This document shows positions 372 to 55,000 of a DNA stretch of 64,000 bases, piece after piece; the first letter of the stretch is position 1, and the number at the start of each line of letters is the position of its first letter. The notes under the pieces are model-generated. The model did not search any database and was not told where the DNA came from. It saw nothing but the letters and a program-made list of their open reading frames with translations. Location: contig OZ004595.1 of NCBI GenBank assembly GCA_963924555.1, positions 496,001 through 560,000 on the forward strand, written 5' to 3'. The translations under genes and the position numbers were made by a program. The stretch comes from Crambe crambe (taxonomy: Eukaryota; Porifera; Demospongiae; Poecilosclerida; Crambeidae).

Positions 372-2075
372 GTTCATTGCACGAGCAGATGAATCACTTT
401 TCTAGGGGGGCAGGGCAGGGAGAACCCAATCTAAAAGACGTGATCAAGTTTCTGCAATCTGACGACAAGATGCTTGTCTCCAATGCTGCCAGTTACCTCC
501 AGCACTTGGCCTATGGTGATGATACCATGAAGACAAAAATCAGGTGAGAATTAATAGATCTCTCTCTCTCTCTCTCTCTCTCTGCTGTAAGGTGTGTTAT
601 CTATCATGATTCTTTTTTTTTTTCCAGGGAGCATGGTGCTATCCCGGTATTAGTCAACCTAATACGTCACCAGGACACCAGAGTTCAAATCACTGCCCTG
701 GGGGCACTGAAGAACCTCTCCTACGGAAGGGTCACAGACGAGAACAAACACATGATCCTCAAGGACCATGGTCTGATGGAAATCATGGTAGCCTTGAAGA
801 ACTCCAGAGTCTCAGAGGTGAGGGAGTTGTTGACAGCACTGCTGTGGAATCTGTCATCGTGTGAGGAGCTGAAGTTGAAGATGATCAAGGGGTGTCTCCA
901 TGATCTGGTGGAAATGGTGATGGTGCCTTACAGTGGCTGGAACACCCAAGAATCTCGAGAACCAACTGCCAGGCCTCAAGCTCTTCACTGGAATGCTGAG
1001 CTCAAGAATACTACAGGTCTGTATCATTTATTTGATCCTCTAGACTTTTATTGCATCACCAATTTAACAGTCAAAAGTGAACCTAGGCCATGCTAAATGC
1101 TTAGATTCTTGTTAGAAAATTGGCTATTTTGCTGAATGCTTAGATTCATTGTTCTCATTTTAAGTGGAATTTTTTGTGACCACTTTTTAATCTAGGCATT
1201 ATGCTGATTTCCATTAGAACTAAAGTCTCCATGTAGTGGTGATCTTTTACCATACATAGACCCAAGTGGTTTTAGTGGTGATGACCCCTTACCATACATC
1301 ACCTTTACCTGTCCCTCCCCAGGCACTCTTCGAAACATGTCTTCTGCGGGAGAGTCTGCTCGCTCATTCATGCGCAGCACCAATGGCATGGTTGACACCC
1401 TCCTCTGGCTCCTCAAGGCTGGTGTTCAGCAAAAGTCAGCGGCTGATGAAAAGGTAAGAGGGCAGAGTGGGAGAGAGAGGGGGAGGGGGGGTGGTCATTT
1501 TCCAAGCACTGAATGATAAGAAATTTCACTTCTGCTTATTCAATAATTTTTTAGACGGTTGAGAATACTGTCTGTATCCTACGAAACCTGTCATACCGGT
1601 TGGAGAACGAGGTGGACCCGCAGGAAGGAGGAGAGGACATTTTGGATCGGGAGTGGGAACAGGAGCAGCGGAGGGAAGTGGAGGACCTGAACCGTTCCTT
1701 CTCCAAACCTTCCTCTGGTTGTCTGTCCTTCTGTGTGCGTCCCAAGACTCATGATGATGCTCCTCGTGTGGCTCTCACTGCTGTCAACAGACCAGTCTTC
1801 AATGTGGACTTTGTCTATCCTGGTATGTACGCACCTCGTTATTCAACCCCTTCCTTACTTATGTAATGGAATTGATGGATCATTCCCTCTTTGCTGCAGA
1901 TGCCTCAGTGATGCCGAAGCGTCGGAAGCCAGTGTATGGGAAGTGTTTACTGTGGCAGCCTGAGGTGGTGTTTGTGTACCTGGCAGTGGTGGAGCAGTAT
2001 CCTGACTCTGTGGAGACCATAGAGGCTGCGGCAGGAGCTATACAGAACTTGACAGCATGTAATTGGAAGGTACTG

Positions 2076-2139
<64 letters not shown>

Positions 2140-3550
2140 TCCTGAGGAAGTATCTTGAAGTTTTTCTTTCTTTCCAGTGGTCAGTTTATATTCGTAACAT
2201 CGTTCGCACATCAAATGGCCTCCACTTAATTGCTGAACTTCTCAACAATGGGCATGATTTGGTGGTTCGAGCAGCTGCCACAGCCCTGCGCAATGTGGCC
2301 ATAGACCAGAGAAACAAGTCTATCTTGGGTGCCCAAAGCATCGCCAATATCATCCCTCGTCTTCCTCTGAGTACCAACCATCTCGGCATCTCCGAGGACA
2401 CTTCCGTAGCATTGCTCTGCTGCCTTATGGAACTCTTTTCAAATTGTCCAGAAAATGCCAAGTAGGTCATGTGATTGTCATGTGATTTGTCATGTGAGTG
2501 TGGTGGCTATGTAGGTTATTTCATGAGAAGGAAGGTGTTCTCCTGCTGACAAGACTGGCTCGCTCCAGACAGCACACGGTTAAGGTCACCTTTGCAGCAC
2601 ATAAGGTAAACAATGTCATATACACACTCTTTAAGGGTGGTTGCCCAAAAGAATGGACCACTGAAACCTGGAGATTGCAGTGATCTTGCAAACCAAAATT
2701 TACATAGCTTCCTTTTAAGTAACCCCAACTCCAAAGCCACCTTTGCTATGTTTTTTGCTGGTCTGGATTTCTTGCACTGCAACACTAATCCATGCAGTTG
2801 TGTAATCCATAGAATGTCCCCCCACCAACCAGTACTGTATCATATTCCATGAACGAAATGGCATGTTTGATAGGAAGAGAAATGTGACTATGAAGGATTA
2901 CTCAGTGTTTTGCAATGGATTTTATGATTTCCTGTATGTACTAGGTTTGTTCTCTGCTGTGGGACTACAAGGACTACAGGTCAGTGCTGAGGAAGTTGGG
3001 ATGGGAAATCAGCCACTTCAACCATGCGGCCAAGGACAGCAAAGTGGCCCAGTTTGAGTTTGACATTCAGGGGAGCATTTCACGAGACTACCAGGGCTCC
3101 CGTAGGAAGAAGCGAGACAGCAAACGTTCCAGTAAAAGGTCGGGGAAGAAGAAAGATAAAGATGGAGGGCCAGGCAGTGGAATAGGTTTTATTGCTGGGG
3201 GCTTACCCCTAGGGGAGATGGCAGATGTACCAATGCAGGTATGTATGTATGTGTAACATCAGAGCTAGAAATAACTGGACCAGTGACCGACCAACAGGAT
3301 ACTGTCAGACCAAATCTTTATAATGACCTGTATTTATATAATTACATATGTTTACATGTATGTATGGTATTCTATTCTCTGTTTCTTCAGAATCCGTCGT
3401 CTGCCATGAGTGTTGGTACTGGTACCATTAGCCCTTCCTTGACTAGCCCTTCTTCAGTGAACCCTTCCTCAGTGAACCCCTCCATGCTCTTAGAAGACCC
3501 CAACTATCAAACCATCCCCAGCCCCTCATCAGGCCACCATCATCATCATC

Positions 3551-3583
<33 letters not shown>

Positions 3584-4476
3584 CCCCTGCCTTGATTGAA
3601 CCCAGTTACCAAAGTGTTCCTGCTGCTTCCTCTCAACACAACCAATCCCCTCCCATGATAGAACCCAATTATGCCAGCGTCCCCACCACTTCCCCTGACC
3701 CCACCCCCTCCAGCACAAACCCCCCAGCACCAACTATAATATACCAGGTATTTATAATAGTATACCAGGCATGTATAATAGTAAACTATAATATACCAGG
3801 TATGTGTAATAGTATACCAGGCATGTATAATAGTAAACTATAATATACCAGGTATGTGTAATAGTGTAGGTATCTATGTTAGTATACCAGGCACTTGGGA
3901 CCCAGGCTTTTGCCCTTTGTAGAGAAGTTGTCCTCTTTAGAGGTCGTAAAGGTACGAGAGTTTGTCCTCTTTCAGAGTGGGAGACTGGGACAGTGTGTGG
4001 TGCTTCAAAATCTCACCCTGTTCAGTTGGATTTTATTTTCTTACTTCCTGCAGTCTATTAATGACCCTGACATGAAGTCAGGGGTGCAAGCGAGTGCCAC
4101 TACAGTGGAGACATCTGCCATAGCCTCCACTACCAGTGGACCAGTGTCAGTCACTTCTCTGGAGGAGGAGGTGGAGCCTGACCCCAATGCCACTTACGCT
4201 TGTGTAAGTATATGTGCAGTGATTCCTGATCAGAGAGGTGTCCTGATTAGAGGGGTGTCCTGATCAGAGAGGTGTCCTGATTAGAGGGGTGTCCTGATTA
4301 GAGGGGGTTTCCTCAATTTAGGGGAGAATAATTTACTGTGTTGTATGATTCTTGATATTTAGGTGGATATTGAGAAGAAGAGAGCCTCTCGTCGGAAGAA
4401 GAAAGAACAAGAGAAACAAGAACAGCAGCAGCAGCAGAGCCAGGAACAAGGAGAGGCCATTGATTCCTGGGTCTAG
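372..4476 (+). CDS. CTNND: Delta-catenin / p120-catenin family protein, copy A (5' partial)
   Basis: Armadillo-repeat adaptor that binds the juxtamembrane tail of classical cadherins and regulates junction stability and Rho GTPases (family knowledge). Exons I place: 372-543, 628-1016, 1323-1453, 1555-1822, 1900-2069, 2178-2461, 2515-2605, 2945-3238, 3391-3747, 4054-4203, 4363-4476; splice phases agree throughout. Family landmarks are VSNAASYLQHLAYGDD, GALKNLSYG, ALLWNLSS, VENTVCILRNLSYR, AAAGAIQNLTA and AATALRNVAID. A family-typical insert between armadillo repeats spans about 1,620-1,925. After the last repeat come a basic KKRDSKRSSKRSGKKK stretch, a Pro/Ser/Gln tail with a His/Gln run, and a final coiled, Gln-rich exon. 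The C-terminus is DSWV, the PDZ-binding end of the delta-catenin/ARVCF/p0071 branch. No disabling change was found in the visible exons. The start codon and first armadillo repeats are outside the window. Confidence 0.93.
2078..2134. repeat. (TC)n microsatellite in delta-catenin intron
   Basis: Pure CT/TC dinucleotide run just after the donor of the TACNWK exon. The orthologous intron in copy B (about 15776-15810) and copy C (about 45749-45830) carries the same repeat at different lengths. A shorter CT run lies at about 560-583 in the first intron. Confidence 0.9.
3736..3875. repeat. Intronic minisatellite, unit about 48-50 bp (copy A)
   Basis: Tandem units built from TATACCAGGTATTTATAATA and TATACCAGGCATGTATAATA segments, starting at the splice donor after the APTIIYQ codons. 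About three units here against about six or seven in copies B (17442-17745) and C (47455-47800). Short open frames through it are repeat artefacts. Confidence 0.8.
4216..4310. repeat. Intronic tandem repeat GGTGTCCTGATTAGAGG (about 17-bp unit)
   Basis: Alternating units GTCCTGATCAGAGAG and GTCCTGATTAGAGGG in the last delta-catenin intron. The same array sits in copy B at 18084-18230 and copy C at 48144-48250 with different unit numbers. Confidence 0.8.
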
Positions 4477-5500
4477 TCTCTTTTATCTCACACTCCCTCT
4501 CATTCAAACTGGTCCATGCTACCATAAGTATATGCAATGTCAAGTCCAACTTGTTAATATATCACTATTTTAGTATTGAGAGATGTCAATTTTACTTATC
4601 GATAATCATACTGGAAATGTATGACAGTTAAATGAAGGGGAAAAGTAGACACTGAAGATAACATCCTTGGGGGGGGGGGACACACAGTACCAACCTCAGA
4701 CACAACGTGAAATATGGGAGAGAGGACTTGGCAAGGGATAATTGAGTTCCGGGCTGTATGAAAGTAGCACCCTGTACTGTAGCATTTACAGGTGTTATGT
4801 AATATTTAGTTCACTCTTTTCTAGCTCTAAGTGTTTTAATGCACCTGCACGAGAATGATGCTATAATGCTTGAGGTGAATGTAATGCACGAGCCGAAGGC
4901 GAGTGCATTACATCACCGAGAGCATTATAGCATCATTCGAGTGCACCATGCATTAAAACACATGGAGCTAGAAAAGAGTGATCTAAACATTTTAGTGCTG
5001 GTCACATGACTTGTGACCAATCAAATTCCAGTTGGTCCTTACAGAACCCTAGCCCTGGTACCTAGCAAGCTCTGACACACTTTGGTTCAGTAAGAATGCT
5101 CTAATTTAATGATATTCAAAAAAAATAAATGAGGTAAATTCCTGAGGTTTTCCTGTTTGAAACCCAATGTAAAAAGTGAAATGCTAAAGTCTATAAAAGA
5201 AAACATTAAGACATATACTTACTGTAAGCACTAGGGACTGAGGCTGGAAGGTCATAGTCCTAGTGGATCTTCCACTAGGCTCCTATGTACCTTCAGCACA
5301 GTTTCTCAAGTGTGCACTAAATATTTAGTGCACATGAAAGTGTGCTTTATGAGATTTAAAGCACACTTTTCAGAGAATCTGATTGGTCACAAGTCATGTG
5401 ACCAGCACTAATAAAAGTATCATGTCAATATTTGATTAGTTTCAATGTTAACATCACTACTTCCCCACTACAGACTTTATAGTCTTGTATATAGTGGTCC
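4477..5500. other. Delta-catenin A 3' flank with copy-specific insertion
   Basis: The 3' flank is shared with copies B and C, including a poly-G tract (4669-4679). It is interrupted by about 610 bp (about 4798-5411) absent from B (compare 18735-18745) and C. The insert holds an imperfect long hairpin (about 4813-4979) and a second inverted pair (about 4990-5032 against 5375-5410), so it looks like one or two non-coding foldback/MITE elements. No coding capacity is visible. Confidence 0.65.
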
Positions 5501-5673: not shown

Positions 5674-8600
5674 ATGGATGAATCTAAACAGGTGAGCTAT
5701 AATGCATGCTCATCAGTAGGTCTAGAAATCCAGATGAAGAACTTGTTCACTGATGCCATTAAGTATCAGGCTATGGCGCCTAAAATATTGGGGAGGACAG
5801 CTGCATTGGTCGGCTAATTCGCCTCAAAACAGCAGCTGTTTGTTTGTTATGTACAGCCTGTCCTGCTATTTATCAGTTGGCCAATTTATCTTTCTAGTAG
5901 AGATAGCAGTTAGCTAGGTCTGCAAGTTCTTTGACTGGTAGATAGTGTTACTGCTAGTTTATAGTTTGACTATCTAGATGTTTCCTCCCAATACAGAAAC
6001 TCGAGAGAGAGCTTGAGAGAGTATTGGGGGTAAGTTATCATGAAAGTAGCTGCTGTGATGTTGTGTTGGTCCAGTGCCCTCTGGTCAGTCACTGCAAAGC
6101 ACCTTAGGCCCATAGAAACAGTCTGTCAAAGATGAGGGGTGCTCGTATGCAGGGACAGGTTGCTTATTGGAATGTTGGACTACTCAACCTTAAAGCAGTT
6201 ACCTCCAGCATGTGGGCCCCAATGTTTCGTACAGATTGTCAACACACCTCAGCTTGTGTGCCTACTAGACCCCTGTCCATTTTTATAGGCCAAATGCTGA
6301 CTCGGCATAATTCTAGTGCACCTCTGCCGAGAGAAGTGGGTGGAGTCTAGTGACTCACAGACCCCAGGACAATATTGAGCACACTTTTTAATGAACATTC
6401 TCCACGTTTGGAGTGTGCAGCTCAAACACCTTGCATGCTAGACCCCTGCTCAATTTTTTACAAGCCGTTACCAACCCATTCAAGTGTGCCGAGGGAAATG
6501 GGCGGGGTCTAGTGACTCATGGACCCCATGACCTTATAGAGCATGATGTGCTCTACAGGTTCTCCAAGTTTGGAGGCCGTAGCTCGCATGCTGTGGGTGT
6601 GGTGATTTTTTTTTGTGGTGCATGATGGCTGTCTTTGTGTGTTGATTGTATGGTTGTCTCACCTTCTCTCTCTCACTCCTCACAGTGGAAGGCATTGGAT
6701 CAGTGGAGGATAGAGCACTATGAACAGGTGAGTGATGAGTGTAGCAGTGGTGTGATGAGGGCGTGGCATGTGGCCCAGTCCATACCTGGTGTGTATTCCA
6801 TGTGTGCAGAGATTGTCTGCTGCTCAGAAGGAGCTCAGTCAGCCTTCCCTGAGTAAAGCAAGGAAGTCTGAGCTTGAGAAGGAGGTGAAGGATTGTGAGG
6901 GAGGGATCCAGGAATGTAAAGAGTTTCTCCTTGCTAGAGAAGAAGAAATAAAGCATCTTCAGGATGCCCTGGGGCAACTTACTTGTAAGTATAAAGATTT
7001 AGCACTAATTAGATGGTGTAATGATACATTATACAAGTTAAGTAATAGCCCAGAGCTATAAAATAGTGTGCGCTCAGCTGGGAGGTGTAATTAGTAATTA
7101 ATAGTAACATGTAAGAATTAATTAGTGACTAATTAAAAGTAGGTGAAATTAATAAATGTTTGAGTGGCCATAACTTTTGAAGGGAAAGTGCTATAGTCTT
7201 GAAATAAGAACCATTCTGCTCAGAAAATTCTACTCTTTCTTTGTGTCACTACTAGCATTACCTAAGAGAGTGTTAGGGAGGTGGTAATCCATTTTGGCAT
7301 GTATTTTATGACCTTATTATCATTTTATCAGCAGAATGTGACTGTTGTGATGTCTTGTGACACTTATTATAAACTGTTATGTAAATAATGTTCTTTTTCC
7401 CTCTTCAGCTGCTTCCCAGAAGCCTGACTCTTCTTCCCAGAAAGAAACACAGAGTGAGTATTGTAAGCCACAATAAGTGGTCCCATTGACAGCAATGTAC
7501 ACATACAATGGTGTGCTTTAATTGAGGTTCTTGGCCAATTAAATAAAATATTACCATTACACCAGCATTACCCAGAGCTATATAAGATAGTGCTAATTTT
7601 ACTCTTTCTTTGTGTCACTACTAAAGTATCAGGGAGGACCGGGTGATATCCATTTTGACATGTGATACAATATGACTAATGGAATTGAATGTGACATTGT
7701 TAGAGTACTAAAGTATCATTATTATTTCCCCTCTATAATAGATACCTCCTCTAGTCCTGTCTCTACTCAAAATGAACCTCTGACTGGATTTGGTGAGTTA
7801 TACTGGAATGTGGCATCTCAAGTACAATAACATCCATACAATTTCCTTTTCAATCTTTATGACTCAGTTTCCAATGAGATGCTGCAACATGAGAATGCTT
7901 GTTCTAAGGTTATTGCAGAGAAAATCTGTGTGGATATCGACATAATAAGGATGGTTTACTCTGGCCTTCCTCGATCAGGGAAGACGTGCAGTCGACGTCG
8001 TTTGATGGGAGAGATCCTGAATATCTTGATGGCCATGGAGAAGGAACAGCCAAGCACAGGAGTGGTGGAGGAGGGAGGCCATGTTGTCATCAGGAATCTC
8101 CATTCTGATGTGGGAACAATTGTGTCTCGGAGATGGTCGGTAGTTAAGGATGTGTTAGAGGAAGCTGGTATATATAGCCAGTTATTCTATGAAACTGTCA
8201 AGAGTGGCACAACATTGGCAGTTGGCAGAGATACAGCTTCACAGTCTTCTATATCTGATGCTGATACGAGAAAGCAGAGGGTAGAGGACATGGAAGAGAT
8301 TCTCTCTCTTTTCCGAGAAGCCATGCGTAATGAAAAGTGGGGCGAAGTAAAGTACCTATTGGAGGACACAATCCTTTTGATAAATACTGACACTGGTGGT
8401 CATGCAGAATTTTTGGAAATGCATGCTGCCCTCGTCATGGGTCCTTCCCTTTACCTTCTATTCAGCCGACTGACCGACCAACTGGATAGCCTCTTTAAAG
8501 TGTATTATACCAATGAAGAAGGTGTGTCTTCTGACCCCGAAGATTCTACACTAACCATGGAAGAAGTTTTATTTCAATCTCTCTCCAGCATCGAATGCTT

Positions 8601-11600
8601 TAGTGAGCGTTCACTGGATAGTCGTGATGGACCCCCAGTAAAGTGTCGCAAGACTACTGAGTTCTCGGGTCACTTCAAGTCAAAAGCTGTATTTGTGGGA
8701 ACACATCGAGACAAGGTGAATGACGAAGAGTTCAAGGAGAAAGATGGCCTCCTTCAGAAGAGAATCGAAAATACAAGTTTTTATAAGAACGAGATTATCG
8801 AGTTTGTCTCAGAGGACCAGCTGATGTTGGCAGTCAATAATTATGATGGTGGCCAAGAAGAGATAGAGGAGATCAGAAAAGTCCTGGAGAGAATAATCAA
8901 AAAGAGCTTCAGTAAAATAACCATTCCAGCTGCCTGGTTAATGTTGAGTCTCTATGTACGGAAATTGAATTTGCGTGTGATGAGTTTAGTGGAATGTGAA
9001 GAGTTGGGAGAGAAGCTCGGAATCAGTCCCAGCGAGTTGCGAGAAGCATTGAGGTTCCTACACCATTGTGTGGGCCTCATTTTGTATTATCCCGAGTTAG
9101 ACTCATTGAAAGATACAGTCATCTGTGATGTGCAAGTCCTGTTTGATAGCGTAACAAACCTTGTCAAGAAGACATTCACTTTTAAGAGAGTTGGGAAAAG
9201 AGTAGCAGAAAGGTTTAGGAAGAAAGCACAGTTCTCACTTAAAGATTTGAAGAGTGCTACATCGAGTTGCACTGATGCCTACATTCCACTGGAGAAATTG
9301 GTGGATCTTCTTGAATACCTCAACATATTGGCACGCTTCACTCCCACATCTCCTACAGGAGCTAGTTCCGCTCAAGAGGAGGTGTACTTCATGCCCAGTA
9401 TCCTCAAGAGTGCCAGAGCCAGTGAATTGACAGTCGAGACCTCCGATGAAGACCCAGCCCCCTTACTGCTACGCTATGATTGTGGCTATGTGCCTCTGGG
9501 CATATTTTCTTACATGATTGCCAACATTGTTTCTCAGCATTCAAAGGACTGGAGGCTGGTTGAAGGAGCTATTCGAAAAAATAAAGTTGAGTTCCACGTG
9601 GGGAAGGACTATGACAAAATCACACTCATCTCGCGTCCCTTGTATCTCGAGATTATAATTACACGACGACAACATAGGAAACCAGTAACTCAGACTAAAA
9701 TGCTCTGCAGTTGTATTCGTGGGGTAGTTCAGTCCACCCTGAAGACAGTCACCTCACGTTTGAACTACAAATTCATAATGGATTACAGGTTCGCCTTCAA
9801 GTGCCCTATCCACTCTAGTACTGATCATCTCTGTGTGCTGGCAGAAGAATCTGCACCCTGTATGGAGTGTCTACAAGACCCTCAACAGATAGAACCAGTG
9901 GACTTGGAGCCTAAACATACCATTTGGTTTGAAGAGGTAAGGAACCAACTGAGTTATTACGTATGTCATTGGATCATTTCCTCTTAATAGAATCTCAATC
10001 AAGATGGTGTGCAACCTGTTAATGTCAGTGGTAAGTGTACATATATTCAAAGCAGAGAGTAACAGGGTATTTCATCAAGATCAACTACCACCTAATGTAA
10101 GAACATCACTGGGAATAACCCTTTATACCATCACTGGGAATAACCCTTTATACCATCACTGGGAATAACCCTTTATACCATCACTGGGAATAACCCTTTA
10201 TACCATCACTGGGAATAACCCTTTATACCATCACTGGGAATAACCCTTTATACCATCACTGGGAATAACCCTTTATACCATCACTGGGAATAACCCTTTA
10301 TACCATCAAAAAGTAGCAATACAGTCTTTTCAGCTGGTGGCCAAGGTTGGCGAGCCTTTATGGTCTAACTATCTCTCACCCCTGTATCATCAAATATAAT
10401 AGAAGAAGAAGAGTCGCAGCTTGACTACCAGTGCTAGCCTTAGTAAACTTATCCATGCAGGCCTGTAACTGCCTGTTTCAATCCTGGTGTTGTGATGATG
10501 ATCCATCCCTTGTAGGATCAGTTAAGCTCCCAGATATCAAGTATTTCCACCTCCAACTCATAAAATGGATCGACCCAAATGGTGAAGAAGCAAAGCTGAA
10601 AATTTACAAAGAGATGTCAACAAAATGGAAGGAAGTTGCTGGAGTGATTGGTCTGAGTAAAACTGAGATTGACAATATAGCTGCTCCAGGGATGGGACGT
10701 GAAATGACTGATTGCATGCGTGACGTCTTTGGGAAGTGGATGGAGAATAGTGATACGCTTCCTAACCACACATGCTATCCACTAACTTGGGATGGCTTGT
10801 GCAACATTCTACAAGACTCTGACAGTGATACGCTGGTGAAGCGATTGAAAGAAGCTCTAGCTGCTGAACAAAGCACCTTAAGAAATACCTTCCCTGCTAA
10901 ACAGTGTAAGTCCTTAACTTTTCTATCATTAGTTCATGCTAGTCGAGAATTGAGAGTAAGAGAAATAACACCCCCTCACTCTTTTCTCACATACACATGA
11001 ACGTTCTCTACAGAATACAAGTACCCATCCTTCATTGCAGTCCACCACAAGTATAGCAAGTGAGTTCATGTGAAAAACCATCACATAGTAATGAGTATGG
11101 TGCACTCAACAAACTTTTCTATCACTATTTCATGCTAGTTTCAAATCATATTGAAGCCTCAGGCATGGTGGTCTCGGCCTCAACTTTGTCACAAGATGGC
11201 CAATCAGATTCACCTATTGCCCCTGATATTCAGACTATAGCACCTTGGTAATAATATCCCTCAATGAGTGTTGATTAGATCTGTAATCATGGTGTGGGTA
11301 TCTCATGTGGTTTCACATGACTTTTATAATACCCATCATGGTTTGAAAAGTGCAATGTACCTATGAACCACCTTTTCACAGACCCACCTACTCATGCCTA
11401 TGACACATAATGACAGAAGTTTGGGACAATTGATTAAGCTAATTAAGAATGAGATGATGTCTCCTTTATTTCCTTTTAGCATCAACAAATCCACTGCAAG
11501 AACCAACATACTCAAAGGTTTGTGTTTGTAGTGGGTTGATATAAAATGTGGACTACGAGTGTCCATCCTTTATTGCAGTCTACCAGCTCTGAAGGATTAA

Positions 11601-14186: not shown

Positions 14187-15774
14187 AGTCAGCCTAATAC
14201 GTCACCAGGACACCAGAGTTCAAATCACTGCCCTGGGGGCACTGAAGAACCTCACAGACGAGAACAAACACATGATCCTCAAGGACCACGGTCTGATGGA
14301 AATCATGGTAGCCTTGAAGAACTCTAGAGTCTCAGAGGTGAGGGAGTTGTTGACGGCACTGCTGTGGAACCTGTCGTTGTGTGAGGAGCTGAAGTTGAAG
14401 ATGATCAAGGGGTGTCTCCGTGATCTGGTGGAGATGGTGATGGTGCCTTACAGTGGCTGGAACACCCAAGAATCTTGGGAATGCTGAGCTCAAGAATACT
14501 ACAGGTCTGTATTTATTTCATCCTCTAGACTTTTATTACATCATCAATTTAACAATCTAGGCCATGCTAAATGCTTAGATTCATATTTGATCTTGTTAGA
14601 AAATTGGCTATTTTGCTGAATGCTTAGATTCATATTGGAGTGTTATTGTTGTGGATTTTTGACTGATTTTTAATCTAGGCATTATGCTGATTTCCATTCG
14701 AACTAAAGTCTCCATGTAGTGATGATCTTTTACCATACATAAACCCAAGTGGTTTTAGTGGTGATGACCCCTTACCATGTATGACCTTTACCTGTCCTCC
14801 CCAGGCACTCTTCGGAACATGTTTTCTGCGGGAGAATCTGCTCGCTCATTCATGCGCAGCACCAACGGCATGGTTGACACCCTCCTCTGGCTCCTCAAGG
14901 CTGGTGTTCAGCAAAAGTCAGCGGCTGATGAAAAGGTACGAGGGTAGAGTGAGAGAGAGAGAGGGAGGAAGGGTGGTCATTTTCCAAGCACTGAATGATA
15001 CTTGTGCTTTCAATACTTCTTTAGACGGTTGAGAATACTGTCTGTATCCTGCGAAACCTGTCATACCGGTTGGAGAATGAGGTGGACCCGCAGGAAGGAG
15101 GAGAGGACATTTTGGACCAGGAATGGGAACAGGAACAGCAGAGGGAAGTGGAGGACCTGAACTGTTCCTTCTCCAAACCTTCCTCTGGTTGTCTGTCCTT
15201 CTGTGTGCGTCCCAAGACTCGTGATGATGCTCCTCGTGTGGCTCTCACTGCTGTCAACAGACCAGTCTTCAATGTGGACTTTGTCTATCCTGGTATGTAC
15301 GCACCTCATTATTCAACCCCTTACTTACTTATGTAATGGAATTGATGACTGAGAGAAAGCATATTGCGAAGAGATTTTGAACATGCACATTAATAATTTA
15401 AACCCTTCCCCCATGACTCCTGGATTTCTCTCCCCTTGTCTATCCTGGTATGGCATTCTTTACTTCTTGCTGAGAGATGCCTTAATAATTGTCAAAATTA
15501 GAACAACAATAACAACAACAATAACAAAACAAAAACAAAACCTTTCTCCATGAATATTAACAATTACTGTCACTCAATGAACATGCCTAGATCATTCCCT
15601 CTTTGCTGCAGATGCCTCAGTGATGCCGAAGCGTCAAAAGCCAGTGTATGGGAAATGTTTACTGTGGCAGCCTGAGGTTGTGTTTGTGTACCTGGCAGTG
15701 GTGGAGCAGTATCGAGGCTGCGGCAGGAGCTATACAGAACTTGACAGCATGTAACTGGAAGGTACAGTGAAAAG

Positions 15775-15812
<38 letters not shown>

Positions 15813-19017: not shown

Positions 19018-22000
19018 ATGGATGAAGGAAGATCTAAACAGGTAAGCTGTAATGCATGCTCATCAGTAGGTCTAGAAATCCAGATGAAGAACTTGTTCAC
19101 TGATGCCATTAAGTATCAGGCTATGGCGCCTAAAATATTGGGGAGGACAGCTGCATTGGTCGGCTAATTCGCCTCAAAACAGCAGCTGTTTGTTTGTTAT
19201 GTACAGCCTGTCCTGCTATTTATCAGTTGGCCAATTAGTAGAGATAGCAGTTAGCTAGGTCTGCAAGTTCTTTTAGACTTGACCGGTAGATAGTGTTACT
19301 GCTAGTTTATAGTTTGACTATCTAGATGTTTCCTCCCAATACAGGAACTAGAGAGAGAGCTTGAGAGAGCATTGGGGGTAAGTTGTCATGAAAGTAGCTG
19401 CTGTGATGTTGTGTTGGTCCAGTGCCCTCTGGTCAGTCACTGCAAAGCACCTTAGGCCCATAGAAACAGTCTGTCAAAGATGAGGGGTGCTCGTATGCAG
19501 GGACAGGTTGCTTATTGGAATGCTGGACTACTCAACTTTAAAGCAGTTACCTCCAGCATGTGGGCCCCAATGTTTCGTACAGATTGTCAACACGCCTCAG
19601 CTTGTGTGCTTACTAGACCCCTGTCCATTTTTATAGGCCAAATGCTGACTCGGCATAATTCTAGTGCACCTCTGCCGAGGGAAGTGGGTGGAGTCTTGTG
19701 ACTCACAGACCCCAGGACAATATTGAGCACACTTTTTAATGAACATTCTCCACGTTTGGAGTGTACAGCTCGAACACCTTGCATGCTAGACCCCTGCTCA
19801 ATTTTTTACAAGCCGTTACCAACCCATTCAAGTGTGCCGAGGGAAATGGGCGGGGTCTAGTGACTCATGGACCCCATGACCTTATAGAGCATGATGTGCT
19901 CTACAGGTTCTCCAAGTTTGGAGGCCGTAGCTCGCATGCTGTGGGTGTGGTGATTTTTTTTTGTGGTGCATGATGGCTGTCTTTGTGTGTTGGTTGTATG
20001 GTTGTCTCACCTTCTCTCTCTCACTCCTCACAGTTGAAGGCAGAGTATCAGATGGAGATAGAGCTCTGGGAACAGGTGAGTGATGAGTGTAGCAGTGGTG
20101 TGATGAGGGCGTGGCATGTGGCCCAGTCCATACCTGGTGTGTATTCCATGTGTGCAGGCATTGTCTGCTGCTCAGAAGGAGCTCAGTCAGCCTTCCCTGA
20201 GTGAAGCAAGGCAGTCTGAGCTTGAGGAGGAGGTGAAGGATTGTGAGGGAATGATCCAGTTTTATAAAAAGCTTCTCCTTGCTGAAGAAGAAGCAATAAA
20301 GAAGCTACAAGATGCCCTGGGGCAACTTACTTGTAAGTATAAAGATTTAGCACTAATTAGATGATATAATGATACATTATACAAGTTAAGTAATAGCCCA
20401 GAGCTATAAAATAGTGTGCGCTCAGCTGGGAGGTGTAATTAGTAATTAATAGTAACATGTAAGAATTAATTAGTGACTAATTAAAAGTAGGTGAAATTAA
20501 TAAATGTTTGAGTGGCCATAACTTTTGAAGGGAAAGTGCTATAGTCTTGAAATAAGAACCATTCTGCTCATAAAATTCTACTCTTTCTTTGTGTCACTAC
20601 TAGCATTACCTAAGAGAGTGTTAGGGAGGTGGTAATCCATTTTGGCATGTATTTTATGACCTTATTATCATTTTATCAGCAGAATGTGACTGTTGTGATG
20701 TCTTGTAACACTTATTATAAACTGTTATGTAAATAATGTTCTTTTTCCCTCTTCAGCTGCTTCCCAGAAGCCTGACTCTTCTTCCCAGAAAGAAACACAG
20801 AGTGAGTATTGTAAGCCACAATAAGTGGTCCCATTGACAGCAATGTACACATACAATGGTGTGCTTTAATTGAGGTTCTTAGGCAATAACATAATAATTT
20901 ATTCAGTCAGTGATTTACTTTACAGAATCAACATCAAGTGACTTGCGTCTAGATGATGCAACTAGAGAGAAAATGGTAAGTGTAATTAATGGAGGGGGTG
21001 TGTGTATGCAGATATCATTCATGTGGGGTGTGAACTCTATGATCGCTCTCCTGGTTTCTCTGATTCAGTTCAACCAGTCCATGACGTGGGGCCACGTTGA
21101 GGCAATCATCATCAAGGTCCTGATCGTGGGGGCTGCTGGAGTCGGCAAATCCCTTTTTTTGTCTCGTCTCCTTGGTGTCGCTATTTCTCTCATCCGAAAC
21201 AGTACCGGAGTGGTCGAGAAAGCCCAGAGGGTCAACTGTCAAAGGTTGGGCACAACAGATCACTTAAAGAACATAGTTTGGGAAGTGGTCGGACCGAAAG
21301 AACTGATGAAACTTCTTGCCGATGCCATAACCTCAGGAATTGAGAAGTTCACTGCTTCTGTTTCCCCTCCACATGCATCTCGTCGTTCCAATAATGGATC
21401 AGGTTCTCATTCGACCAGTTCTGCTGATGCAAGCTACTCTACAGCTAGAACTACCGTCCTTCAGCTGATAGGTCGTTCCAAGGAAGGTAAATTGCTGAAG
21501 ATGACTTGGATCTATCTGATAGATAGTGGAGGGCAGCCTCAGTTCCACGAGCTTCTTACAGCATTCATCAGAAACACCACTTTAGGTATCTTTGTCTTCA
21601 GGCTCTCAGATCGGCTGGACGATAAGCCACGGATTGAATACTACAAAGGTGGAAAGCCACTGGGTGAGCCTTATCCTTTCCCCATGAGCCACAAGGAGAT
21701 CTTCCAGCACTGTGTCCAGACCATTTCTTCCCTCCCTTCCACTTCTCCTCTGAAGGATCAGGCCCCAACTCGTCCAAAAATTCTCGTCTTGGGAACTCAT
21801 CGAGACGAAGAGAGCAAGTGTTCCGAAACACGTGATGAAAAAGAGAAGATTCTCAGGGATATCTTGCATAAAGGGCCAAATCCTGACTCGGCCATCTCAG
21901 AAGATTTGATCTACTATGGAAATAGGTGCATCTTTCCTTTGAATGCTAAATCACCTGAGGAGCAGGACGAGGAGATCATCGGTGATATTCGAGACAAAAT

Positions 22001-23681
22001 AGTGCGTCTTGCACCTCAACCCCAATCCATCCCACTGCAGTATTACGCACTCGAACTGGAACTCGAAAAGAAAGAAGAGAGTGTGATTAGCTTCAAAGAA
22101 TGTTTGGATATTGCCAAGCATTCCCTGCTTTTCGAAGAGACTGCGGCCAGAACTGCCATCCATCATCTGGATAGCCTCAACCTCATCCAACACTTCCCAG
22201 AGTGTGCCGATGAGGTCATATTCTGTGACCCCAACATCCTCCTCAACAAGGTGAACGAGCTGATAGAGAAAAGCTACAGCTTGAGAGGTTTAACCCCTAC
22301 AAAACTTGAGGCAGATGTGGGAGGGGACTGGATTAGATTCCACATGCGTGGCAGGGTGACCTTACCCATGCTTAAAGAGTTTCCCGAAGGCTTCGTGCAA
22401 AATCTTTACGATCATCGCACTTTGGCCAAGATCTTTGAAGACCTGCTCATCTTGACTCGTTTTGAGCATGATGATAGCTTTTTCATGCCTGCCCTGCTCG
22501 ATGTTAAAGATCTGAAGCTCATCCAGCGACCTACCAAGACGTGCTTGATCATAGCGTTCTCCTCTGGGTATGCCCCCTTGGGACTTTTTTCTTCCTCCAT
22601 TGCCTTTCTGACTTCGAGCAAAAATCGACCTTCTCCATGGATGTTCTTGTTCGAAAAAGGTCAACTCTTCCGAAATGTGATCAGCTTTGATATGAATACG
22701 GTAAAGGTCACTCTTATTGACTGCTCAGCTCATTTCGAGGTTCATGTGGAGCTGCAGGAAGGCATGCAAGAAGACCCGTCCATGATGCCCGAAGTGTGCA
22801 GAATCATACGCCAAGGGATCAAGGAGGCCATCAAGCAATCGATGAAGAAACGCCACATCTGTAATGCATCGTACAGAGAGAGTTTCTTCTGCCCGTGTGA
22901 CTCGTATGCTACCTACCACTTGGCCAGTGTGAAAGAAGTCTTTGGGAAGTATCGCAGGTGTTGTGAAGTCCACACTGGGAAGGGTGGAAATTTGGAAGAA
23001 CATCACTACCAGTGGCTGGGAATAGAACCCTCTACACTATCAAAAGGTAGGAATACATGCCACTAATCTAATTAATTATTAATTGTCCTCTGTTATGTTC
23101 TTTATAGCCACTTCTGGTTCTCTTGGGATGGCTGCTCTTCCTGCAGTTAGTGAGTACTTTAAAGACGTGAACAGAGAAGAGGTGATCAGACTGGGGCTAG
23201 CTCTTGGATTGTTATACAGTCGACTCGAAAGGATGAAAATGTTTCCTGAGGATGTCATAGCTGCATGGTTGAGGGGAGATGACCAATGTGGTCCTCCCAG
23301 CTGGACTAGTCTGGCCACAGCTCTTGAAAGAACTGGTCACACAGCTATTGCCTCCAAAGTCAGGAAAGGTGAGCACAGTCAAAATCAATGAGATTACAAA
23401 CACTTAATTAGTTGATCTGTTTCCTATTTTATAGAAAAGCTCAGTCAAGTCCTCACTACTCCTTCACCTCCAAGACCTACACCAGCAGGTGAGCAGTTTA
23501 ACAGAGTGTGTATTATCATACTGGTACATGGTACATGGTAATGAATGCAGGTCCTTCTGTCAACCCTTTACCTGATGAGGTGGACAGTGCTGCAAACAGT
23601 TCTCCTAATGACAGGCAACAAAGGTCTCACCAAACTTCTTCCACTCCTCAAAGTCGTGATAAATTTTGCCGATTTTTGTGA
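19018..23681 (+). CDS. Roco-type GTPase with coiled coil and Death domain, gene B (GTPase II, Death II)
   Basis: Coiled coil - ROC - COR - Death domain protein. Exons: 19018-19041 (MDEGRSKQ), 19345-19377, about 20035-20075, 20158-20332, 20757-20801, 20926-20975, 21069-23046 (about 659 codons), 23108-23368, 23435-23488, 23551-23681. All phases join cleanly, so this is the best-defined of the three genes. G1 GAAGVGKS (21129-21152), G3 DSGG (21523-21534), G4 THRD (21795-21806). COR is inferred from position, with a DDSFFMPALLDVKDLK stretch. The Death domain exon differs from genes A and C: it has a PEDVIAAWLRGDD turn and PSWTSLATALERTGH, the classical Death-fold pattern. A Pro/Ser/Thr-rich tail follows. 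Upstream introns are about 99% like genes A and C; the GTPase exon is close to gene C and unlike gene A. Confidence 0.88.
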
Positions 23682-28339: not shown

Positions 28340-28855
28340 CAGTACTTACTTACCACAGAACCATCAGTGACTGCATATACTTGTACTAACTCTGGCACAT
28401 TCACATCTTCACTCTGTTATAATTACTATCATCCAATTCTCATGAAGTATAATCATCATAAACCTACTTTCTTGTCACTGCTGTGTGGCTACACAGACAA
28501 TAGATAAATAATATTGTAAAAATGAATTGACTTAGTGCTCACTTCTTCATTCTCAATCGTGGAAGCTTTGGGGGGTGACTACAGTATAATAGCGTACTAT
28601 AATTACATGCAAGAGCAAATGCATTTGTCTGATTACCATTTCATGTCCTGATTCGCTGCTGTCATCATTTTCATCCCGTTTACTGCTGAAATCCATTTCA
28701 CTGTCACTATCATCTTTGCTGTAAAAAATTACATTCATCAAAAGTGATTGCTTTAATACTCCTTACATTTCATAGTGATTTGGACATCTATCTAAAAATG
28801 CTTGCAGGATACATCTCATCTCTTCGGCAGTATACTTTGTGTTGTTTTCTAATAA

Positions 28856-29269
28856 TCAGAGAGTGCGGTAGCACTCTCTATGTAGGGATGACTCGGACGG
28901 CCGCGCGCGCCGCCTATAGACTAATACAAAAGTGAAATTCCAGTTCCCCCACTTAGACCTAACAAAAGCTACTGTGAATGATTATCCAGCCTACTAGAGC
29001 CTACTACAATGTGCAGACCAAGTTTCAGGACCAGGGAGCTTACCGTTTCAGAAATACGGCAAGCAGGTAAATCGCTATATTCTTCTTCTTCTCTATTATT
29101 ATTATTATTATTCTTCTTCTTATTATTCTTCTTAGACAACCATATCTCTCGAACCACTCAAGCTACAGCTATGATTTCTGGACAAATCCACTCCAAATTC
29201 TACGAACTACGATCTTTTCTACTCGTTGGTCCTCGAAAGAGTCGATGAAAAAGGAGACACTATGGAGCA
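28856..29269. repeat. Long inverted repeat, left copy (414 bp)
   Basis: Essentially identical, in reverse orientation, to 31474-31887. It starts ATCAGAGAGTGCGGTAGCAC, itself a small hairpin, and ends GACACTATGGAGCA. The two copies enclose the Cys-rich gene region, like terminal repeats of a roughly 3-kb element. A Leu/Phe-rich open frame inside is a (TTC/TTA)n artefact. Confidence 0.85.
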
Positions 29270-30798: not shown

Positions 30799-30813
30799 CC
30801 AATCTTTATTATA

Positions 30814-33043: not shown

Positions 33044-33356
33044 TATTATAGCAACAATGACAATTTTAATTTTGAGCATGTTGTACATGTATACTTTTGG
33101 GATGAGCCCTGTTATTTGGATTTGAGTAGAAGTTGTATTTTCCTATAATTGTATATACAATAGTAATGTCATCCATCATTTTGTCTCCAGATTGCAAGTC
33201 TACCCTCCGGATTCATTATCCTGGGTAAGATTTTATATAGGAGATCTGCCACATAGTGTTCTGAATCTCTTGAAGGGAGCATTAAAGACACTATCCTTTC
33301 TATCCAGTTTTCCGTGGCAATCTTCGTCACAATCTTAAGAAATTATAGGCATGAAG

Positions 33357-45450: not shown

Positions 45451-45486
<36 letters not shown>

Positions 45487-45746: not shown

Positions 45747-45748
<2 letters not shown>

Positions 45749-45830: not shown

Positions 45831-45832
<2 letters not shown>

Positions 45833-47272: not shown

Positions 47273-47303
<31 letters not shown>

Positions 47304-49016: not shown

Positions 49017-52000
49017 ATGGATGAATCTAAACAGGTGAGCTATAATGCATGCTCATCAGTAGGTCTAGAAATCCAGATGAAGAACTTGTTCACTGATGCC
49101 ATTAAGTATCAGGCTATGGCGCCTAAAATAGTGGGGAGGACAGCTGCATTGGTCGGCTAATTCGCCTCAAAACTGCAGCTGTTTGTTTGTTATGTACAGC
49201 CTGTTCTGCTATTTATCAGTTGGCCAATTTATCTTTCTAGTAGAGATAGCAGTTAGCTAGGTCTGCAAGTTCTTTTAGACTTGACTAGATAGTGTTACTG
49301 CTAGTTTATAGTTTGACTATCTAGATGTTTCCTCCCTCTACAGAAACTCAAGAGAGAGCTTAAGACAGCATTGTGGGTAAGTTGTCATGAAAGTAGCTGC
49401 TGTGATGTTGTGTTGGTCCAGTGCCCTCTGGTCAGTCACTGCAAAGCACCTTAGGCCCATAGAAACAGTCTGTCAAAGATGAGGGGTGCTCGTATGCAGG
49501 GACAGGTTGCTTATTGGAATGCTGGACTACTCAACCTTAAAGCAGTTACCTCCAGCATGTGGGCCCCAATGTTTCGTACAGATTGTCAACACACCTCAGC
49601 TTGTGTGCCTACTAGACCCCTGTCCATTTTTATAGGCCAAATGCTGACTTGGCATAATTCCTAGTGCCCCTCTGCCGAGAGAAGTGGGTGGAGTCTTGTG
49701 ACTCACAGACCCCAGGACAATATTGAGCACACTTTTTAATGAACATTCCCCACGTTTGGAGTGTGCAGCTCAAACACCTTGCATGCTAGACCCCTGCTCA
49801 ATTTTTTACAAGCCGTTACCAACCCATTCAAGTGTGCCGAGGGAAATGGGCGGGGTCTAGTGACTCATGGACCCCATGACCTTATAGAGCATGATGTGCT
49901 CTACAGGTTCTCCAAGTTTGGAGGCCGTAGCTCGCATGCTGTGGGTGTGGTGATTTTTTTTTGTGGTGCATGATGGCTGTCTTTGTGTGTTGGTTGTATG
50001 GTTGTCTCACCTTCTCTCTCTCACTCCTCACAGTTGAAGGCATTGCATCAGAGTGTGATAAAGTACTGGGAACAGGTGAGTGATGAGTGTAGCAGTGGTG
50101 TGATGAGGGCGTGGCATGTGGCCCAGTCCATACCTGGTGTGTATTCCATGTGTGCAGAGATTGTCTGCTGCTCAGAAGGAGCTCAGTCAGCCTTCCCTGA
50201 GTGAAGCAAGGCAGTCTGAGCTTGAGAAGGAGGTGAAGTATTGTGAGGGATGGATCCAGAGAAATAAAAAGTATCTCTTTGGTAGAGAAGAAGCTATAAA
50301 TAAGCTTCAAGATGCCCTGGGGCAACTTACTTGTAAGTATAAAGATTTAGCACTAATTAGATGATGTAATGATACATTATACAAGTTAAGTAATAGCCCA
50401 GAGCTATAAAATAGTGTGCGCTCAGCTGGGAGGTGTAATTAGTAATTAATAGTAACATGTAAGAATTAATTAGTGACTAATTAAAAGTAGGTGAAATTAA
50501 TAAATGTTTGAGTGGCCATAACTTTTGAAGGGAAAGTGCTATAGTCTTGAAATAAGAACCATTCTGCTCAGAAAATTCTACTCTTTCTTTGTGTCACTAC
50601 TAGCATTACATAAGAGAGTGTTAGGGAGGTGGTAATCCATTTTGGCATGTATTTTATGACCTTATTATCATTTTATCAGCAGAATGTGACTGTTGTGATG
50701 TCTTGTAATACTTATTATAAACTGTTATGTAAATAATGTTCTTTTTCCCTCTTCAGCTGCTTCCCAGAAGCCTGACTCTTCTTCCCAGAAAGAAACACAG
50801 AGTGAGTATTGTAAGCCACAATAAGTGGTCCCATTGACAGCAATGTACACATATAATGGTGTGCTTTAATTGAGGTTCTTAGGCAATAACATAATTTATT
50901 CAGTCAATGATTTACTTTACAGAATCAACATCAAGTGACTTGCGTCTAGATGATGCAACTAGAGAGAAAATGGTAAGTGTAATTAATGGAGGGGGTGTGT
51001 GTATGCAGATATCATTCATGTGGGGTATGGGGTATGAACTCTATGATCGCTCTCCTGGTTTCTCTGATTCAGTTCAACCAGTCCATGACGTGGGGCCACG
51101 TTGAGGCAATCATCATCAAGGTCCTGATCGTGGGGGCTGCTGGAGTCGGCAAATCCCTTTTTTTGTCTCGTCTCCTTGGTGTCGCTATTTCTCTCATCCG
51201 AAACAGTACTGGAGTGGTCGAGAAAGCCCAGAGGGTCAACTGTCAAAGGTTGGGCACAACAGATCACTTAAAGAACATAGTTTGGGAAGTGGTCGGACCG
51301 AAAGAACTGATGAAACTTCTTGCCGATGCCATAACCTCAGGAATTGAGAAGTTCACTGCTTCTGTTTCCCCTCCACATGCATCTCGTCGTTCCAATAATG
51401 GATCAGGTTCTCATTCGACCAGTTCTGCTGATGCAAGCTACTCTACAGCTAGAACTACCGTCCTTCAGCTGATAGGTCGTTCCAAGGAAGGTAAATTGCT
51501 GAAGATGACTTGGATCTATCTGATAGATAGTGGAGGGCAGCCTCAGTTCCACGAGCTTCTTACAGCATTCATCAGAAACACCACTTTAGGTATCTTTGTC
51601 TTCAGGCTCTCAGATCGGCTGGACGATAAGCCACGGATTGAATACTACAAAGGTGGAAAGCCACTGGGTGAGCCTTATCCTTTCCCCATGAGCCACAAGG
51701 AGATCTTCCAACACTGTATCCAGACCATTTCTTCCCTCCCTTCCACTTCTCCTCCGAAGGATCAGGCCCCAACTTGCCCGAAGATTCTCGTCTTGGGAAC
51801 TCATCGAGACAAAGAGAGCAAGTGTTCCGAAACACGTGATGAAAAAGAGAAGATTCTCAGGGATGTCTTGCACAAAGGACCAAAACCTGACTCAGCCATC
51901 TCAGAAGACTTACTTTATTACGGAAATAAGTGCATCTTTCCTTTGAATGCTAAATCACCCGAGAAGCAGGACGAGGAGATCATCGGTGATATTCGAGAAG

Positions 52001-55000
52001 AAATAGTGCGTCTTGCACCTCAACCCCAATCCATCCCACTGCAGTATTACGCACTCGAACTGGAACTCGAAAAGAAAGAAGAGAGTGTGATTAGCTTCAA
52101 AGAATGTTTGGACATTGCCAAGCATTCCCTGCTTTTCGAAGAGACTGCGGCCAGAGCTGCCATCCATCATCTGGATAGCCTCAACCTCATCCAACACTTC
52201 CCAGAGTGTGCCAAGGAGGTTATATTTTGTGACCCCAACATCCTCCTCAACAAGGTGAACGAGCTGATAGAGAAAAGCTACAGCTTGAGGGGCACTTTGA
52301 CCCCTTCGAAACCCGAGGTACTATTAAAAGGAGACTGGATTAGATTCCACATGCGTGGCAGGGTGACCTTACCCATGCTGAAAGAGTTTCCTGAAGGCTT
52401 TGTGCAAAATCTTTACGATCATCGCACTCTGGCCAAGATCTTTGAAGACCTGCTCATTTTCACTCGTTTCGGGCATGATGATAGCTTTTTCATGCCTGCC
52501 CTGCTCGATGTTAAAGATCTGAAGCTCATCCAGCGACCGACTAAGACGTGCCTAATCATAGCGTTCTCCTCTGGGTATGCCCCCCTGGGACTTTTTTCTT
52601 CCTCCATTGCCTTTCTGACTTCAAGCAATAATCGATGGCCTTCTCCATGGATGTTCTTGTTCGAAAAAGGTCAACTCTTCCGAAATGTGATCAGCTTTGA
52701 TGTGAATGCGGTAAAGGTCACTCTTATTGACTGCTCAGCTCATTTCGAGGTTCATGTGCAGCTGCAGGAAGGCATGCAAGAAGACCCGTCCATGATGCCC
52801 GAAGTGTGCAGAATCATACGCCAAGGGATCAAGGAGGCCATCAAGCAATCGATGAAGAAACGCCACATCTGTAGTGCATCGTATGGTGAGAGTTTCTTCT
52901 GCCCGTGTGACTCGTATGCTACCTACCACTTGGCCAGTGTGAAAGAAGTCTTTGGGAAGTATCGCAGGTGTTGTGATGTCCACACTGGAAAGGGTGGAGC
53001 TTTGGAAGAACATCACTACCAGTGGCTGGGAATAGAACCCTCTACACCATCAAAAGGTAGGAATACATTCTATTTAGCTAGTGGCCAAGGTACTGTAGGT
53101 GGCCGAGTCTTTGGTCACTCCAGCAGCTTGAACTACCTAGTGCATGCAGGCCTGTAACTGGGTACGGTGAACCTGCCTTAAAGACCACCTGTATCCAGAG
53201 ACCAACCTTCTATAAAGTGGTGTTCCCAAAGTACCATTTCGATTGATTTTGACCTCCATATAGAGACCATCTTCCTATTAAGACCCACTTCTTTTTTTTT
53301 TGTGGCCCAGAGGTGATTGCTGTAGGCAGCTTCTCTGTATATAATTATTGATCTGATGCTCCATCCCTTGTAGGATCAGTTAAGCTCCCAGATATCAAGT
53401 ATTTCCACCTCCAACTCATAAAATGGATCAACCCAAATGGTGAGGAAGCAAAGCTGAAAATTTACGAAGAGATGTCATCAAAATGGAAGGAAGTTGCTGG
53501 AGTGATTGGTCTGAGTAAAGCTGAGATTGACAATATAGCTGCTCCAGGGATGGGACGTGAAATGACTGATTGCATGCGTGACGTCTTTGGGAAGTGGATG
53601 GAGAATAGTGATACGCTTCCTAACCACACATGCTATCCACTAACTTGGGATGGCTTGTGCAACATTCTACAAGACTCTGACAGTGATACGCTGGTGAAGC
53701 GATTGAAAGAAGCTCTAGCTGCTGAACAAAGCACCTTAAGAAATACCTTCCCTGCTAAACAGTGTAAGTCCTTAACTTTTCTATCATTAGTTCATGCTAG
53801 TCAAGAATCGAGAGTAAGAGAAATAACACCCCCTCACTCACACATGAACGTTCTCTACAGAATACAAGTACCCATCCTTCATTGCAGTCCACCACAAGTA
53901 TAGCAAGTGAGTACATGTGAAAAACCATCACATAGTAATAAGTATGGTGCATTCAACAAACTTTGCTATCACTATTTCATGCTAGTTTCAAATCATATTG
54001 AAGCCTCAGGCATGGTGGTCTCGGCCTCAACTTTGTCACAAGATGGCCAATCAGATTCACCTATTGCCCCTGATATTCAGACTATAGCACCTTGGTAATA
54101 ATATCCCTCAATGAGTGTTGATTAGATCTGTAATCATGGTGTGGGTATCTCATGTGGTTTCACATGACTTTTATAATACCCATCATGGTTTGAAAAGTGC
54201 AATGTACCTATGAACCACCTTTTCACAGACCCACCTACTCATGCCTATGACACATAATGACAGAAGTTTAGGACAATTGATTAAGCTAATTAAGAATGAG
54301 ATGATGTCTCCTTTATTTCCTTTTAGCATCGACAAATCCACTGCAAGAACCAACACACTCAAAGGTTTGTGTTTGTAGTGGGTTGATATAAAATGTGGAC
54401 TACGAGTGTCCATCCTTTATTGCAGTCTACCAGCTCTGAAGGATTAAGAGAAAGACACATGAGTGGACCTCAACCAGCAAGTGAGTATGTGTCACAGTGA
54501 TCTTGCAACAACAGCAAACCAAAATTTTACATAGCCTCCTTAAACTGTGGCTTTACTTGAAAGGAGGCTATGTAAATGTTTTAAGTGGTCACTATATAGT
54601 CACTACCAAAGCCACAAAAAAATTTCAGTACTGGGTAGTTGAATGTGATCCCTATATATAGGGCCTGTACAGTGAATTGCAAGTTGAATGTGATCCCTAT
54701 ATATAGGGCCTATACAGTGAATTGCAAGTTGGTTGTCCAAATGTAAAACGCAAATTGACTGCAATAAAAATTTGCATCTACTGAGGAAAAGCCACACATT
54801 CATTCAGGAACAGCCTCAAGTTTATTACACAGCTCTTTTAGATTTTGTATCTTACATTGGACAACCAACTTGCAATTCACTGTACAGAGAATTGCAAGTT
54901 GGTTGAGGGAGAAGACTTTGCTTGTTTACGTAAGAGGCCACTAGTTATTGTTCTGAACAATGGCTAATGAAATCTTCCCCTCAACCAACCCTCTGTATTA

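Follow-up and report, generated by a model that had tools for sequence, protein, structure and literature searches.

The Locus and the Predicted Gene Model

The DNA analyzed here, a stretch of 64,000 nucleotides of the sponge Crambe crambe (C18:496001-560000, referred to below as the window), carries three paralogous gene copies, A, B and C, and was compared with the assembly, which comprises 143 Mb in 119 contigs. Joining of the exons of copy A on the basis of the sequence predicts a product of 811 residues, read in frame from the ATG at 5674 through seven exons, the last being the GTPase exon; AG precedes and GT follows each of exons 2 to 7. The features of the three copies are the following.

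5674..5691, + strand: exon 1 of copy A (MDESKQ)
5997..6029, + strand: exon 2 of copy A, 33 bp, phase 0, hypervariable (copy B 19345-19377, copy C 49344-49376)
6608..6685, + strand: 3' end of intron 2, 96-100% identity across chromosome families (18 copies compared)
6686..6727, + strand: exon 3 of copy A, a 42-bp microexon, phase 0 (copy B 20034-20075, copy C 50034-50075)
6728..6809, + strand: intron 3, 82 bp (copy B 20076-20157, copy C 50076-50157)
6810..6984, + strand: exon 4 of copy A, 175 bp (copy B 20158-20332, copy C 50158-50332)
6985..7408, + strand: intron 4 of copy A, 424 bp
7409..7453, + strand: exon 5 of copy A, little variable
7742..7792, + strand: exon 6 of copy A
7868..9936, + strand: exon 7 of copy A, predicted Roc-COR GTPase of type I
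10516..10905, + strand: exon downstream in copy A, Death domain-like, below the Pfam cut-off
20898..23066, + strand: predicted Roc-COR open reading frame of copy B (stop to stop), type II, under purifying selection
50983..53157, + strand: predicted Roc-COR open reading frame of copy C (stop to stop), type II

Exon 1 and the sequence 5' of it occur in several versions across the copies. Exon 4 encodes an SQPSLS turn and the second helix of a predicted hairpin and contains hypervariable codons, and exon 5 shows a median pairwise difference of 0.02, its mean being raised by insertions in three copies.

An earlier note on this DNA had described hypervariable exons beside invariant introns in the three copies, and its counts were reproduced. 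Intron 3 is identical in A, B and C, and intron 4 has 4 differences in each pair (0.9%), in agreement with the approximately 1% claimed. In exon 3 there are 11 site differences for A/B, 10 for A/C and 9 for B/C; they change 7, 7 and 6 codons respectively, each with an amino-acid replacement, and exon 4 shows 12 amino-acid and 2 silent changes in A/B, 13 and 1 in A/C and 11 and 2 in B/C. The exon 2 peptides are KLERELERVLG in A, ELERELERALG in B and KLKRELKTALW in C; A/B and B/C each include a single codon with a silent-only change.

A Multigene Family on Several Chromosomes

A genome-wide search with the first 41 bp of intron 3 returned 75 places on C8, C15, C16, C17 and C18, 62 of them with zero mismatches, 11 with one and 2 with three. 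These were taken as 74 genes, since a copy on C8 (L046) carries a 49-bp tandem duplication of the intron 3 start. Among the best 40 candidates scored for the 1,070-bp region around the exons, 32 matches are located on C18, copy A included, and 8 on C17 at 75-77% identity; two of the C18 matches (L038 and L039) are merely 85-86% identical.

Of the 74 genes, 62 were sampled, in full or in part. The C18 diversity set consists of 30 of the 32 copies, L038 and L039 being excluded; as two further copies (L036 and L037) cannot be aligned upstream of intron 2, figures for exon 2 and intron 1 refer to 28 copies. The cross-family exon 3 set holds 59 of the 62 copies, without L038 and L039 (which have an 81-bp intron) and L057 (which has a deletion in exon 3), and the C8/C15 diversity set holds 16 of 18 copies, without L046 and L057. 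Broken copies exist, including L029, with a stop in exon 2, and L021, with an 8-bp deletion in exon 4. A locus on a sixth chromosome (C9:6725726-6726660) has matches that resemble exons 2 and 4, separated by 0.9 kb, and the intron 3 start was not matched there at up to 3 mismatches.

Exon and Intron Diversity

The alignment extended the pattern beyond the three window copies, to the 30 copies on C18 and to 16 of the 18 in the C8/C15 family. On C18, copies differ pairwise by a mean of 0.216 for exon 2 (n=28), 0.240 for exon 3 and 0.109 for exon 4 (n=30). The introns are more uniform: the corresponding means are 0.030 for intron 1 (n=28), 0.030, 0.029 and 0.014 for successive parts of intron 2, and 0.005 for intron 3. 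The C8/C15 copies (n=16) give 0.247 for exon 3, 0.099 for exon 4, 0.011 for intron 3 and 0.003 for the 78 bp before exon 3. Exon and intron divergence are thus unequal (0.11-0.24 vs 0.005-0.03 on C18). The exon 3 excess is more than chance: exon 3 reaches 0.239, whereas 149 sliding 42-bp intron windows in 28 copies have a median of 0.0195 and a maximum of 0.099.

The three segments behave differently between chromosomes (59 copies; C15 counted with C8). Exon 3 differs about equally within and between chromosome families (0.242 and 0.253), with 58 distinct peptides in the 59 copies; intron 3 differs by 0.006 within vs 0.0275 between families; for exon 4, over its first 150 bp, the corresponding values are 0.179 and 0.475.

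Selection on the Hairpin and GTPase Exons

Among the 30 C18 copies, the most changed codons of exon 3 are 1, 4, 5, 7, 8, 11 and 12, while codons 2, 3, 6 and 13 are constant in all 30, silent sites included. The exon has a pN of 0.271 and a pS of 0.065, and of its 6,090 codon pairs just 11 carry a silent-only difference. The dN/dS values are 2.55 for exon 2 (98 silent-only codon pairs of 4,158) and 1.93 for exon 4 (461 of 21,924), counts of a type that recombination biases for all of exons 2-4; exon 3 gives the cleaner replacement signal. In these genes the GTPase exon is under purifying selection, opposite to the hairpin exons, with a pN of 0.029, a pS of 0.102 and a pN/pS of 0.28 in 16 type II copies and a pN/pS of 0.39 in 4 type I copies. 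Along the type II exon, pS is 0.01-0.05 in the first 240 columns, which lie nearest the hairpin exons, and 0.07-0.20 beyond, with a peak of 0.19-0.20 at columns 540-660 and a value of 0.06 in the last window of 19 columns.

The peak serves as a neutral yardstick. Replacement differences in exon 3 amount to 9.65 per pair and, if assigned wholly to the seven variable codons, with their 21 bases, to about 0.46 per base; after Jukes-Cantor correction and with a yardstick of 0.2, the variable codons stand at about three times neutral. As silent divergence in the GTPase exon reaches approximately 0.2, exon 3 codons need be just a few-fold above neutral, and most of the seemingly fifty-fold excess over intron 3 reflects homogenization of the intron.

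The Predicted Hairpin and GTPase Switch

When exons 2-4 of 25 copies are joined, the amino-acid entropy is most strongly periodic at 3.5-3.7 residues (p of at most 0.002 in each segment by permutation at a period of 3.5) and exceeds 1.2 bits at positions 4-26 and 53-74, plus 42 and 44, the two variable stretches being separated by the near-invariant SQPSLS turn. AlphaFold modeled exon 4 alone as a helix at 2-9, a turn and a helix at 16-57 (pLDDT 96.9). This helix-turn-helix model suggests that both variable stretches would be placed alongside each other in a hairpin, and the variable codons are predicted to form one face of it. The proposal of diversifying selection on the helix is strongly supported by the replacement bias at fixed codons of exon 3, by the helical periodicity and by the purifying selection on a control exon in the same genes.

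The downstream region is, by profile and fold comparison, a predicted Roc-COR GTPase of the Roco type. Copy B reached 25.5 bits for Roc (cut-off 27) and 22.8 for COR-A (cut-off 35.3) in Pfam, both below threshold; a profile of 32 relatives matched LRRK2 at 5.5e-9, and the best folds for the GTPase model (pLDDT 77.8) were LRRK2, LRRK1 and the C. tepidum Roco protein, with a TM-score of approximately 0.45 of the query. A long GTPase open reading frame follows in 20 of 21 C18 loci (type I in 4/21, type II in 16/21), the remaining locus (L022) having no frame of at least 250 residues. The type I and type II GTPase exons of the window (7868-9936 and 20898-23066) share 24% identity although their hairpin modules are nearly identical, so that the 5' module appears to have been joined to different switch modules. 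A Death domain scored 18.1 bits in copy A (Pfam cut-off 22.6) and was not matched by Pfam in the copy B candidate. In the pieces scanned, Pfam gave no match to leucine-rich repeats (LRR), the variable exons looking helical, nor to a NACHT domain or WD repeats, the GTPase being Roco-like.

Homogenization and Recombination of the 5' Block

The DNA flanking the homogenized block is 14-48% different among 14 type II copies. Together with the silent divergence of the GTPase exon, these flanks indicate that the copies are old and that their 5' block has been homogenized. It is the introns that constitute the anomaly, being unusually slow; the claim that exons evolve far faster than introns was half right, as the introns are homogenized.

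Recombination is extensive. The four-gamete test was failed by 384 of 1,035 pairs of 46 informative intron SNPs (28 copies), as expected under frequent conversion. In the same number of copies, exon 3 distance is uncorrelated with flank distance (Mantel r -0.02, p 0.56), and 29 of 378 pairs show zero differences in 297 flanking bp, yet differ in exon 3 by 11 on average and by at least 5. A lag in exon difference would be expected after conversion and is not seen, because exon 3 differences persist as flank differences reach zero.

Direct reassortment was found on C8, where two copies (L045 and L064) have a common exon 3 within an identical run of about 225 bases and differ in exons 2 and 4. 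Beyond the examined copies, among the 100 matches listed of 154, two places on C17 are identical over 35 bp and one on C16 is a single base from a C18 copy (L013).

Proposed Mechanism and Alternative Explanations

The most convincing reading, and a probable one, is that of a family of about 74 genes for intracellular Roco-type proteins, each with a hypervariable hairpin, a Roc-COR switch and possibly a Death-like domain, in which conversion homogenizes the scaffold and diversifying selection keeps the surface codons different. Gene conversion in short tracts would homogenize the introns and the frame codons, and diversifying selection would maintain or re-create the differences at surface codons. 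Tracts that make the exons of two copies alike may be selected out, or may abort at an exon with approximately 25% mismatch. Occasional tracts would carry a whole exon 3 cassette between genes, and exons 2, 3 and 4 would therefore reassort. The variable face could bind many ligands, be they partner hairpins, self/non-self proteins or molecules of pathogens or symbionts, while signaling would fall to the GTPase and any Death-like part.

One weak point of this conversion-plus-selection model is the near-identical 82-bp intron 3 across chromosomes, which conversion explains poorly and for which purifying selection may be needed; others are the missing lag in exon 3 and the larger share of silent change in exons 2 and 4. 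Between families, the region from approximately 6608 to 6809 is 94-100% identical in 18 copies (one of them from C16), exon 3 excepted at 0.77-0.82; identity decays roughly gradually upstream and falls to 45-70% at exon 4. Recent duplication of whole genes does not account for this block of about 200 bp, and either conversion across chromosomes or strong purifying selection on intronic signals could.

The second option, purifying selection on introns in place of cross-chromosome conversion, would concern, for instance, splicing signals for 33- and 42-bp microexons that are unable to hold enhancers themselves. As an account of the exon 3 block it is possible, though less probable than not, and it is compatible with the conversion-plus-selection model, being limited to that block and leaving introns 1, 2 and 4 within C18 aside. 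Exons 2 and 3 are indeed microexons, and the middle of intron 2 and the frame of exon 4 do not share the identity of the block. The balance leans toward constraint because intron 3 offers a mere 82 bp between two mismatched exons. It leans toward conversion because the common tract of L045 and L064 is about the size of the block and because the fixed codons of exon 3 are invariant in C18 at their silent positions too. The gradual upstream decay also argues against constraint, as do introns 1 and 2, which are near-uniform within C18 too and strongly recombined. RNA folding of intron 3 and its upstream flank yielded z-scores of 0.65, 0.49 and 1.15 with no conserved fold, and Rfam gave no match to either up to an E of 1.

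A further proposal regards the block as a dedicated unit of its own, which would be copied by conversion between chromosomes into more than 70 receptor genes with long-diverged neighboring exons, its surface codons being renewed so fast that almost no two genes retain one set; the repertoire would then be built from cassettes, possibly somatically as well. This was considered unlikely.

Still more doubtful is a silent donor library that supplies whole exon variants through conversion. The identical exon 3 pair within the common tract and the near-identical places on C16 and C17 would fit it, and so would the linkage among exon 3 codons, which is weak and not nil (3 of 300 permutations attained the observed distance variance, 59 copies). 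However, clear linkage across exons 2-4 is limited to codons 1-2 apart, and nearly every exon 3 peptide is distinct. Tandem exon-3-like units do occur on C15, in a minisatellite of approximately 4.7 kb (L044, C15:6584001-6590000) whose units, 47 and 59 bp among them, resemble exon 3 plus a splice site; many are nearly uniform, and the array looks derived and degenerate rather than a source of variants. The donor-templated conversion suggested earlier thus stands as reassortment, seen in 1 of 1,711 pairs of examined copies identical in exon 3 within a shared tract, and not otherwise, and the search for a donor exon library found none.

A targeted or template-primed mutator, resembling a diversity-generating retroelement or a deaminase, that rewrites the exons while the flanks are copied is less probable again. 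The identical 297-bp flanks around some 11 changes in 42 bp, uncorrelated with them, and the equal exon 3 difference within and between chromosome families are what such a process would produce. Against it, changes placed on minimum spanning trees of 28 variable codons fall 72/67/41 at codon positions 1/2/3, where 70.3/77.7/32.0 are expected for replacement changes (third-position p 0.10; 17 tree edges silent), and so fit ordinary mutation with a replacement filter. An NNK-like mutator acting by codon position had been suggested by fixed third bases, the third base of codon 11 being C in 68 of 69 sequences, and was rejected on these counts. Of those 69 sequences, the 30 from C18 were chosen independently and the 39 others were found through the exact frame pattern, so that frame invariance in the latter carries an ascertainment bias. 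The unchanging frame includes A, C, G and T, and a base-specific mutator is therefore excluded; adenine-specific change, the mark of a diversity-generating retroelement, was likewise rejected, as the conserved frame keeps adenines along with other bases. The invariance of the fixed codons at silent positions in C18 counts against a mutator as well. Nor was any burst observed in young duplicates: an alignment of L038 and L039 over 2,039 columns contains 9 mismatches and 78 gap columns, and their exon 3 is identical, which implies that exon change is not instantaneous, at least in this divergent and possibly inactive subfamily. Targeted mutation is unsupported and not needed for the pattern. Chimeric assembly or collapsed haplotypes, to which near-identical repeats are prone, are hardly credible as the source of the exon differences, given 30 C18 and 16 C8/C15 copies at separate places and a replacement bias and helical periodicity that misassembly would not yield.

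Relation to Known Systems and Possible Role

The conversion-plus-selection model follows the same evolutionary scheme as several known families, with a homogenized scaffold and diversified surface codons; by analogy, the fungal NWD NLRs and the brown-algal LRR-ROCO genes are the closest kinds. The NWD (NACHT-WD) incompatibility genes HET-D/E/R of Podospora encode multigene intracellular NTPase receptors, with concerted evolution of the scaffold, exchange between members and diversifying selection at a few fixed positions of the binding face (PMC4986451). There the WD repeat is the homogenized unit and NACHT the switch, in contrast to the 5' intron-bearing block, hairpin and Roc-COR region described here. 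The LRR-ROCO genes of brown algae, candidate immune receptors (PMC11378527), likewise combine a Roc-COR switch with an N-terminal recognition region of short exons of equal phase under diversifying selection; their LRR exons, of one motif each, are shuffled and alternatively spliced, whereas in the Crambe family no LRR was found and variation lies between gene copies, within a hairpin of two helices beside near-invariant introns. For the NLR-B30.2 genes of zebrafish, the section consulted (PMC4852459) reports domain-dependent gene conversion within the family and positive selection in the recognition domain, in NACHT proteins whose recognition domain is B30.2, and mentions no microexon block common to diverged families. 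The three-finger toxin genes of viperids (PMC2474615) also have highly similar introns and exon segments that differ between paralogs, although the products are secreted and segments are switched, unlike the fixed codons on a helix face seen here.

Distinctive of the Crambe family are the helical hairpin in microexons, the contrast at the level of single bases and the block common to several chromosomes. Among the matches listed in a search of open-licence literature, no publication dealt with a sponge Roco expansion with hypervariable exons, and a term search found the word Roco absent from the main text of an article on NLRs of Dysidea (PMC12909245).

The pattern is as expected of a family that recognizes many different partners, and a role in immunity or allorecognition may be proposed from the sequence. 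If this is correct, an animal would have a large intracellular receptor family whose recognition residues can be read from the genome, those residues forming one face of a two-helix hairpin on an LRRK2-like switch. The family would then be a candidate, open to testing, for the recognition of self/non-self or microbes, and a clean natural experiment in which conversion and diversifying selection can be followed base by base within 200 bp.

Neighboring Elements

Two pairs of inverted repeats, possibly a mobile element, lie between copies B and C: 28855-29269 with 31474-31888 (415 bp, 100% identity) and 30807-31479 with 32378-33050 (673 bp, 99%). Each window copy is preceded by a copy of an armadillo-repeat gene (652-4480, near 14187-18400 and near 44648-48450), which by eye we take to be p120/delta-catenin-like. 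Downstream of two other copies, open reading frames that look gag-like by eye are present in the array (L016:8022-9446 and L024:8604-9800).
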